Source of the DNA: Clostridia bacterium
GTDB taxonomy: Bacteria > Bacillota > Clostridia > Oscillospirales > RGIG8002
Reading direction: 5' to 3'
DNA length: 64,000 nucleotides
Assembly (NCBI GenBank): GCA_017620395.1
Contig: JAFZQJ010000013.1
Location: 1-64,000 of the forward strand
Below are positions 5,194 through 10,882 of the stretch, piece after piece (within the stretch, counting starts at the first letter, position 1; every line of letters starts with the position of its first letter). The position numbers and the translations under genes were made by a program. Below the pieces are notes generated by a model. It searched no databases. It was not told the origin of the DNA and saw only the letters and a program-made list of their open reading frames with translations.

Positions 5194-6588
5194 TTATTTA
5201 TCCGAGACGGACTTGGCGTCGTCGTCTTCCTCGTAGTTGCGGCGGCGGTCGCCGAACTGCTTATAGTAGTTGCCCTTGTTCTGATACATCGCCTCGTCGG
5301 CGCGCTTGAAGACTTCCTTGAACGCGGCGTCTTCGCCCGGGCGGTAGACCGCGCCGCCGCCGGAGAAGGAGAGCGTCATCGCGTAACGCTTCTCTTCGGC
5401 GTTGAACTTCTCCACAAGCTCGCCGATCTGAAGGAGCTTGGCGTCCAGCTCGTTCTCGGTGGTTGAGCCGAGTATGACGATGAATTCGTCGCCGCCGATG
5501 CGGAAGATCTGCTCGCCGCTGAATACGCGGCGGATCATCGCCGCGGCGTCTACTATGATGCGGTCGCCGCATTCGTGGCCGTAGTTGTCGTTCGTGGTCT
5601 TCAGACCGTTGACATCGAAGACGGCTATCGCGAAGGAGGCGGTGCCGTTGTATATCCTGCTGTTGAGCTCCTTGACGTAGTCGAGGTACGCTGTCTTGTT
5701 CGCGACGCCGGTCATGGAGTCGGTGTACGCCTGCTCGTGCGCATACTGCATATACGCCTGGAGCTTGCCGCGCATGGCGTGGATCTTGCCGCTGAGCTCG
5801 CCGATGGTATCGCCGGATTCGTTCTCCTCCGGCGCCGCGTCCGAGTAACCGGGGCGCACGCGGATCTCGTTCGAGAGCTTCTCGACGTCGCCGGAGAGCG
5901 TCTGCATTTCGGAATTGAGCTCGCGGATGCGGCGGCGGAGCTGGCCGGTCAGAAGCAGCATTATCGCGGCGCCGACGACCAGCGAAAGCGCGCTGCCGAT
6001 AACGACGAATTTCGTATGCGCGGCGATCTGCTCATCGAACCAGTCGGCGACGAAGTCGACTCCGACGAGGCCGACGACCTTGCCGGAGAAGTTCTTGATC
6101 GGACTCCACGCGGTGTAAAAGCTGCCCCATTCGTCCTGATACTTCTCGGCGTCGACCGCGGAAACGCCGGTATTCCAAGCGGCGGCCTGCGAATCGGTGT
6201 CTACGACGCGCTTGCCGTAGAGTCCCGGGTTCACGGGGTCGGGATCGACGACGAATATGAAGTGATCGCCCTGTTTCTTGACGGTGTAAATATACTTGAT
6301 GTCGCTGTCCTTCTGCGCGCGCAGGACGTTCGTCAGATCGGAGTATATCCCGTCGTACTCCGGCGTTCCGGCGTTGTCGCCGTCTATTGTCGCGAAGGCG
6401 TCGCCGTCGAGCGAAGCGGCGACTGTATCGGCGACGGAGAGCATGTTCCTGCGGATCATTTCCTTCATCGACTTGCCGGACTGCGACATGAGCAGCAGTC
6501 CGAGCGTGACGTTCAGCGTAAGCAGAAGCACGCAGACTATGACCACGTACTGAGTCGTAATATTCAGCTTTCGTTTACGTTTCGTCAT
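5194..6588 (-). CDS. Membrane diguanylate cyclase, Cache-GGDEF
   Basis: 464 residues. There are two membrane helices (about 10-34 and 192-215), and the roughly 155 residues between them look like an extracellular Cache-type sensor (KYIYTVKKQGDHFIFVVDPD, then GSFYTAWSPIKN and GLVGVDF). A short coiled-coil linker leads to a GGDEF domain at about 285-445, with RIGGDEFIVIL (GGDEF at 365-369) intact, so it should make c-di-GMP from two GTP. The allosteric I-site RxxD expected five residues before GGDEF reads FSGE, so product inhibition by that site is absent. It ends in an acidic tail. It lies in the same minus-strand cluster as an EAL protein that would degrade c-di-GMP. Confidence 0.93.
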   Translation of the reverse strand: MTKRKRKLNITTQYVVIVCVLLLTLNVTLGLLLMSQSGKSMKEMIRRNMLSVADTVAASLDGDAFATIDGDNAGTPEYDGIYSDLTNVLRAQKDSDIKYIYTVKKQGDHFIFVVDPDPVNPGLYGKRVVDTDSQAAAWNTGVSAVDAEKYQDEWGSFYTAWSPIKNFSGKVVGLVGVDFVADWFDEQIAAHTKFVVIGSALSLVVGAAIMLLLTGQLRRRIRELNSEMQTLSGDVEKLSNEIRVRPGYSDAAPEENESGDTIGELSGKIHAMRGKLQAYMQYAHEQAYTDSMTGVANKTAYLDYVKELNSRIYNGTASFAIAVFDVNGLKTTNDNYGHECGDRIIVDAAAMIRRVFSGEQIFRIGGDEFIVILGSTTENELDAKLLQIGELVEKFNAEEKRYAMTLSFSGGGAVYRPGEDAAFKEVFKRADEAMYQNKGNYYKQFGDRRRNYEEDDDAKSVSDK

Positions 6589-6637
6589 ATATATCCCTTC
6601 AAAGCGGCGCGAACGCCGTTTAATTACAGCAAGAACG

Positions 6638-6643
6638 ATTATA
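6638..6643 (-). promoter_or_regulatory. Possible -10 box for the diguanylate cyclase gene
   Basis: TATAAT on the minus strand about 50 bases before the cyclase ATG. No good -35 box at normal spacing is seen. The leader holds a small hairpin GGCG-CGAA-CGCC. Confidence 0.4.
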
Positions 6644-6702
6644 CCATATTATCGCAAAAAAATCTACGGTTATTTTATTGAGTTTATATATCCGCGGAGC
6701 GA

Positions 6703-10228: not shown

Positions 10229-10401
10229 TTGCGTCATACCTTTTGTTGCGGATAGATATATGCGTCCTCCGCGTCCGTTTTCCGACGGCTGTATGTAGAC
10301 GCATATAGATATATATTTAATATGATAACTCAACCACAAGCCTTTGTCAAGAAATGTTATGGATGAACCGGTATTTTTTTACTTCGAGCTCCCGGACGCG
10401 G

Positions 10402-10576
10402 GGGATTCGCTCGGCGCGCTTTTGCGCGCGCCGACACGCCCTCGTCGGCGGAAACGCGCCACCGGCGCGTTTCCTTCCGTCCGCTCCGCGGACTCCCTCC
10501 TTTTCGAATCCCTCCGATTCTATATTAAAAGCGTAAGGCGCCCGAATGGGCGCCTTACGCTTTTGGCGGAAGCGGT
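10402..10576 (-). repeat. tRNA-Ser tail repeat unit, distal copy (175 bp)
   Basis: Non-coding unit nearly identical to the one at 10577-10741. In the direction of tRNA transcription it runs: copy of the tRNA 3' end (CACCGCTTCCGCCA), terminator hairpin, AT-rich spacer, then a body with hairpins built from GGAAACGCGCC/GGCGCGTTTCC and TCGGCGCGC/GCGCGCCGA. The body is enclosed by GGGATTCG/CGAATCCC, the T-arm sequence of the tRNA. Compared with the other copy the stems are kept, while loops and a spacer of 8 bases differ. Open frames across this region are artefacts of the repeat. Confidence 0.85.
10527..10564 (-). terminator. Terminator copy inside the distal tRNA-tail unit
   Basis: Perfect 17-bp inverted repeat, arms 10527-10543 and 10548-10564 (AAAAGCGTAAGGCGCCC and its complement), loop of 4. 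It has the same stem as the terminator next to the tRNA but a different loop. Confidence 0.8.
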
Positions 10577-10741
10577 GGGATTCGCTCGGCGCGCTTTTGC
10601 GCGCGCCGACACGCCCTCGTCGGCGGAAACGCGCCCCCGGCGCGTTTCCTTCCGCTTCGCTCCCTCCTTTTCGAATCCCTCCGATTCATATTAAAAGCGT
10701 AAGGCGCCCATCGGGCGCCTTACGCTTTTGGCGGAAGCGGT
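10577..10741 (-). repeat. tRNA-Ser tail repeat unit, proximal copy (165 bp)
   Basis: Second copy of the unit, abutting and overlapping the 3' end of the real tRNA-Ser gene. At its right edge GGGATTCG runs on into the true T-arm (GATTCGAACCC) of the tRNA, whereas at the junction with the distal copy the same bases run into CTCGGCGCGC. The two copies and the tRNA thus share the 14-base tail with CCA and the terminator. Confidence 0.85.
10693..10729 (-). terminator. tRNA-Ser terminator
   Basis: Perfect 17-bp inverted repeat, arms 10693-10709 and 10713-10729, with a 3-base loop and a T run on the minus strand, beginning at the final A of the encoded CCA. Confidence 0.88.
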
Positions 10742-10817
10742 GGGATTCGAACCCACGAGACCTTGCGATCTACCTGATTTCGAGTCAGGCCCGTTATGAC
10801 CACTTCGATACGCTTCC
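10729..10817 (-). tRNA. tRNA-Ser(CGA) with encoded CCA
   Basis: Minus-strand class II tRNA. Acceptor GGAAGCG pairs with CGCTTCC. The anticodon arm is CCTGA-CTCGAAA-TCAGG, giving anticodon CGA, which reads UCG. A long variable arm follows (TAGATCGCAAGGTCT), typical of tRNA-Ser, and the T arm is GTGGG-TTCGAAT-CCCAC. Discriminator G and CCA are encoded. It has its own promoter and terminator. Confidence 0.95.
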
Positions 10818-10853: not shown

Positions 10854-10882
10854 ATTTTACTTTATACCCCGCCGGTTGTCAA
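10854..10882 (-). promoter_or_regulatory. Promoter of tRNA-Ser
   Basis: On the minus strand TTGACA (10877-10882), 17-base spacer, TAAAAT (10854-10859), about 37 bases before the mature tRNA 5' end. The 5' leader contains a GCGC-rich hairpin that could be a processing signal. Confidence 0.8.

Follow-up and report, generated by a model that had tools for sequence, protein, structure and literature searches.

Non-coding units behind a clostridial tRNA-Ser gene probably represent a small mobile element whose ends fit the neighbouring tRNA

Genes for tRNAs are classic landing sites of mobile DNA. Elements and islands integrated there duplicate the tRNA 3' end directly and keep the tRNA whole, with the repeat bounding the insert. 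The RtT repeats of E. coli tyrT/tyrV (RF00391, rttR) are a long-known oddity that is usually viewed as a curiosity; units of 178 bp lie in tandem behind the tRNA, with a 19-bp direct copy of its tail. Small gene-free hairpin repeats also make up the REP/BIME class, which is moved by RAYT (Y1) transposases. We describe units with a layout like that of the RtT repeats behind the tRNA-Ser(CGA) gene of a Clostridia bacterium, in a stretch of 64,000 nucleotides (the window).

In what follows, D denotes the tRNA tail from the T-loop through CCA, and D' its inverted copy. On the minus strand, the locus reads D, terminator, D', body, D, terminator, D', body and a decayed D (Table 1). The complete tRNA is left intact, and the element is flanked on both sides by direct copies of the tRNA 3' end, from the T-loop to the mature end.

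Table 1. Features of the tRNA-Ser(CGA) locus in window coordinates
Feature	Position	Strand	Basis or remark
Promoter-like TTGACA-17-TAAAAT, upstream of the tRNA	10854..10882	-	11/12 consensus bases; consensus match only
tRNA-Ser(CGA), host gene, encoded CCA	10729..10817	-	only tRNA gene called in the region (ARAGORN)
D copy 1, tRNA-Ser(CGA) tail from the T-loop onward, TTCGAATCCCACCGCTTCCGCCA	within 10729..10817	-	
Unit 1 terminator hairpin, 17-bp stem, loop GAT	10693..10728	-	repeat/inverted-repeat search and folding
Unit 1 D', inverted copy of the tRNA-Ser tail, 16/18 bases	10670..10687	-	complementarity test
Unit 1 body, subfamily A: AAGGAGGGAG, hairpins, GACGAGGGCGTGT motif	10585..10669	-	body alignments
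D copy 2, direct copy of the tRNA 3' end, CGAATCCCACCGCTTCCGCCA	10564..10584	-	
Unit 2 terminator hairpin, 17-bp stem as in unit 1, loop ATTC	10527..10563	-	repeat search and folding
Unit 2 D', 16/18 bases	10503..10520	-	complementarity test
Unit 2 body, one longer hairpin (GTCCGCGGAGCGGAC)	10410..10502	-	body alignments
D copy 3, decayed, CGAATCCCCCGCGTCCG	10393..10409	-	by eye against copies 1 and 2

The sequence-only reading had described tandem units carrying copies of the tRNA-Ser tail and terminator, and a repeat search recovered them at the same spacing of 165-175 bp, with repeats of 78 nt (99%), 37 nt (100%) and 28 nt (100%). The terminator stem that it had reported is perfect in both units. 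It counted two tail-carrying units; there are indeed two, but the tails number three with the gene's own included, the outermost being decayed. The body was correctly seen to be bounded by T-arm-derived sequence, but GGGATTCG at its 5' end is the inner part of the 18-nt inverted tail. This D' (GAATCGGAGGGATTCGAA) is complementary to the tail (TTCGAATCCCACCGCTTC) to the same extent in both units. The claim that stems are kept and loops vary also held: the units differ only in hairpin loops (terminator GAT/ATTC, GCGAAG versus GTCCGCGGAGCGGAC, triloop GGG/GGT) and by one hairpin insertion. Tail, terminator and inverted tail form a single long palindrome; against shuffled sequence this segment folded with z of -8.3 and -8.7 in the two units, and whole units with z of -5.2 and -6.5.

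An assembly duplication was ruled out, since the two units diverge, the first has an ortholog in the congener G002 (L008, running to the contig end) and a separate copy lies behind tRNA-Ser(GGA). In G002 (L008 = G002:C74), part of the tRNA 5' end (GGAAGCGTATCGAAGCGG) was also seen in duplicate, about 60 bp before tRNA-Ser(CGA). Three identities had been offered for the units. The first, a tRNA-like small RNA, was rejected because no unit has a 5' acceptor strand or a tRNA fold, and both ARAGORN and Rfam at gathering score found only the real tRNA. Rfam searches of the window at E up to 5 likewise gave only tRNA, apart from sub-threshold matches to unrelated families that we judged to be chance, and Rfam 15 currently holds no named family for this repeat. 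The second, an insertion target, was right in part, in that it is the tRNA 3' end that is targeted and duplicated. The third, a repeat element using the tRNA tail, is the one that the comparison with other genomes bore out.

For that comparison we used the genome of the window (G000, 98.7% complete), its congeners G001, G002 and G003, and more distant genomes. As the sequence-only reading had suggested looking, related units were found next to other tRNA genes, behind Ser, Leu and Arg tRNAs. A second locus in the window genome, tRNA-Ser(GGA), is followed by the body at 86%, together with the tail belonging to this tRNA; 2.3 kb from it lies a truncated body copy. The body also occurs behind a Leu tRNA in G003, behind Leu(CAA) in G043, which belongs to a different family, and behind Arg(CCG) in G044, in each case with D and D' of the local tRNA. 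Near-identical bodies were found at different tRNAs within one genus. Elsewhere in the order, other body types with the same layout stand behind tRNA-Ser, Arg, Leu, Phe, Glu, Gln and Gly genes.

Seven tRNA loci were filled in one congener and empty in another (Ser(GCT), Thr, Gly, Ala, Gln, Arg and Pro). At tRNA-Ser(GCT), G002 is filled and G000 empty, the aligned sequence being 97.4% identical, and the filled allele has exactly one extra unit together with a 20-bp direct repeat, AAATCCCTTCTTCTCCGCCA. The terminator of this empty site matches the distal one of the filled allele; that of the tRNA-Pro empty site matches the proximal one. Precise empty sites could equally be explained by deletion between direct tails. 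As Ser(GCT) keeps the distal and Pro the proximal terminator, both insertion and precise loss by tail recombination are likely, in either order.

The fit of element ends to the local tRNA was assessed in 105 units with a called tRNA from many taxa, a set that still includes L123 (Gulosibacter) and L183 (Haloferax); on inspection, these two matches and that in Geothrix (L118) were not genuine. The variable T-arm base agreed with the D' base in 104 of these units (39 expected by chance) and with the distal direct copy in 103 of 105. The T-loop letter is tracked as well, with TTCAA tRNAs having TTGAA in D'. Beyond the pattern, 461 of 1352 outer bases agreed, compared with 364 after shuffling (maximum 412 in 1000 shuffles); agreement between D' and tRNA was significant to about base 15 and fell off outward, the inner bases fitting better. 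Extension of D' inward into the 5' strand of the T-stem was no better than shuffled (1.04 versus 1.05), which places the end of the inverted copy in the T-loop.

By eye, some units have a long D': in G003, that at Ser(GGA) equals the full tRNA tail at 23/23 bases and that at Gln at 19/20, and at Arg(CCG) in G001 it covers about 21 bases. Since the distal tail of these units has decayed or gone missing, selection for pairing with it cannot be the origin of the long D', and this favours D' having been copied from the target when the element was born. A mature CCA-tailed tRNA was rejected as the general template, because CCA was present in the distal copy and absent from the gene in only 3 of 27 cases. 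In the Patescibacteria loci L161, L193 and L214, the distal tail has CCA, and the tRNA gene and most sampled tRNA genes there have no encoded CCA.

An account in which the repeats are immobile would have their direct tails homogenised by recombination with the gene, and their inverted tails by quasi-palindrome correction. It would suit the better match of inner D' bases and the orthology of the Ser(CGA) units in G000 and G002. We nevertheless consider it distinctly unlikely, given full-length inverted copies beside a lost distal tail, empty sites in congeners and near-identical bodies at different tRNAs of one genus.

The body itself is likely to be selected as folded RNA or as folded single-stranded DNA, and the data fit both alike. 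In subfamily A, unpaired motifs are kept across families and hairpins vary. Covariation is strong in the related GAGUGAAUG subfamily, where 128 of 152 cells are paired in stem P2 (best of 500 shuffles, 109) and 151 of 152 in P3 (best of 500 shuffles, 132), each with double changes in 7/8 pairs. G.A mismatches are present in P2, and GUGAAU and AGAG vary little or not at all. The GAGUGAAUG module also occurs off tRNA loci, inside a palindromic repeat that is dispersed and has 7 copies in the window genome; this repeat, GGCTCCCCTGTG...GACTGAGGGGTTGT, was recorded at L326-L330 (G000:C9, C18, C11, C30, C4), L331-L342 and L345, and may be another habitat, or the source, of the module. Separately, a near-threshold match to Gut-1 RNA (48.4 bits, gathering 50) was seen just 3' of a tRNA-Leu unit (L042, 1648-1718), within a stretch of TGAAATCC-type repeats.

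Stems with compensating changes, and unpaired motifs that do not vary, are also what a regulatory RNA would show. After read-through, the inverted tail could pair with the T-arm of its tRNA and ruin that tRNA, or pair with the distal tail and leave the tRNA unharmed, and the unit would so act as a switch; alternatively, a released RNA could act as a sponge, as is reportedly the case for the E. coli leuZ 3' spacer. The folding of tail, terminator and inverted tail as one hairpin agrees with such a role, as does a distal D that runs full-length to the discriminator base in 74 of 104 units. On the other hand, presence at the same tRNA differs among congeners, inverted copies decay outward, modules occur off tRNAs, and the many tRNA types with units have no common logic. 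We regard a regulatory function as the explanation of the units as unlikely.

Searches for machinery gave no candidate enzyme. Near the 105 units no genes recurred beyond sporadic housekeeping genes, and the units themselves are non-coding. A Y1 transposase (PF01797) was absent from G000, G001 and G003, and no reverse transcriptase was found in the window genome or in most element-rich genomes; both enzymes were rejected as the machinery because the window genome lacks them. Two reverse transcriptase genes were noted in congeners. One (L260, G001:C167, ~5644-6700) lies directly 3' of tRNA-Ala(GGC) with a structured stretch between, and looks like a retron at a tRNA end; the other (L262, G003:C7) has repeated NSxNAMNVNGDNG-type reading frames upstream and looks like a diversity-generating retroelement (DGR).

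The direct repeat spans the T-loop to the mature tRNA end, which is the usual attachment identity block. It might thus be proposed that a tyrosine recombinase acting at the tRNA 3' end left short scraps bounded by attL and attR, which then duplicated in tandem. However, no integrase family recurs near the 105 units, the length is uniformly short and the body conserved, a single body is paired with many tails, and such integration sites have no inverted tail copy. This origin appears very improbable.

The distribution was examined at several levels. A T-arm plus inverted T-arm pattern was present in 118 of 245 genomes of the order, a count that includes adjacent tRNA pairs, and the reversed control matched almost none; a covariance model of one body subfamily had matches in 57 of the 245, mostly behind tRNA tails. 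A scan of 84,980 species genomes gave at least 119 stretches with the pattern. Among the matches listed, most were from Oscillospiraceae and other Clostridia, many from Patescibacteria, some from Coriobacteriia, and single cases from elsewhere; the archaeal and other single cases, with metagenome bins as their source, are weak ones. Sampling 398 genomes from the whole phylum gave 3 with the exact three-part pattern, which makes the distribution of the class patchy. This kind of element is common in gut Clostridia and is present also in Patescibacteria and Coriobacteria. Nothing on such elements was found in the open-access papers searched.

The RtT repeats were examined in the same way. In E. 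coli K-12 they carry an inverted tail, at 13/16 bases, before the hairpin body (p 0.0005-0.002 in the three distal units and 0.018 in the unit between tRNA genes). The unit between the two tyrT/tyrV genes is cleanly absent in strain SK1144. RtT-like sequence occurs in 4692 of 5426 E. coli genomes, at 1 to 10 places each. Among the open-access papers searched, we found no treatment of RtT repeats from this angle.

Taken together, related bodies stand behind different tRNAs with ends fitted to each, and a filled allele has precisely one unit and one tail more than an empty one. We conclude that the units are probably copies of a mobile element, small, non-coding and non-autonomous, whose insertion site is the tRNA 3' end. 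This reading rests on the same body carrying other tails (Ser(GGA) in the window genome, Leu and Arg in relatives), ends that fit their own tRNA, sites filled or empty in congeners, and long D' beside lost or decayed distal tails, together with the module dispersed off tRNAs, the covarying GAGUGAAUG stems and the clean presence or absence between K-12 and SK1144. Against it stand the lack of a candidate enzyme in our searches, the ability of deletion to give empty sites, and the conflicting terminators at Pro and Ser(GCT).

For such an element, both tail copies would be made from the target at insertion. Because tail, terminator and inverted tail form one long palindrome, it suggests that DNA synthesis folds back on itself into a hairpin where the tRNA-terminator hairpin lies, although we put this step forward only tentatively; a body copied from another unit would then be joined on, via the T-arm letters common to all tRNAs. 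Recombination between direct tails would produce tandem copies and remove them, and the outer part of the inverted copy would decay afterwards. The body would be transcribed by read-through from the tRNA promoter, and may be kept through recognition of the folded RNA or single-stranded DNA by putative machinery acting in trans. If true, refitting of the ends to each tRNA would be a new way for an element to insert safely, with unusual target-copied termini, and such an element would account for the recurrent tRNA-adjacent repeat in gut Clostridia, Patescibacteria and Coriobacteria.

Units of the window type share the direct 3'-end duplication with tRNA-integrated islands, but have no integrase or cargo, measure ~150-180 bp and carry an inverted tail. 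Like REP/BIME repeats they are small and gene-free, and in some bodies G(G/T)AG precedes a hairpin as it does there; GTAG or GGAG forms the hairpin foot in the GAGUGAAUG subfamily, and in the window body GGAG simply occurs. They differ from REP/BIME in their tRNA-tail ends and in the absence of a Y1 transposase from the window genome. The RtT model (gathering 45 bits) scored 133-138 bits in K-12 (L265), and gave no hit in the window when E values up to 5 were allowed, and none in the related loci L240, L245, L013 and L042. RtT repeats are annotated at tRNA-Tyr only, in one tRNA operon, whereas the window units follow tRNA-Ser(CGA). As sequence models do not join the two, the window units fall outside RF00391; nonetheless they are tandem units each with the 3' end of the preceding tRNA, as in RtT, and from their sequence they appear to work like RtT repeats. 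It is an evenly balanced question whether both belong to one mobile class, wide but patchy in bacteria, with ends built from the target that let it colonise any tRNA harmlessly. Such a class would place the E. coli tyrT repeats in a wider context and make their origin testable in K-12.
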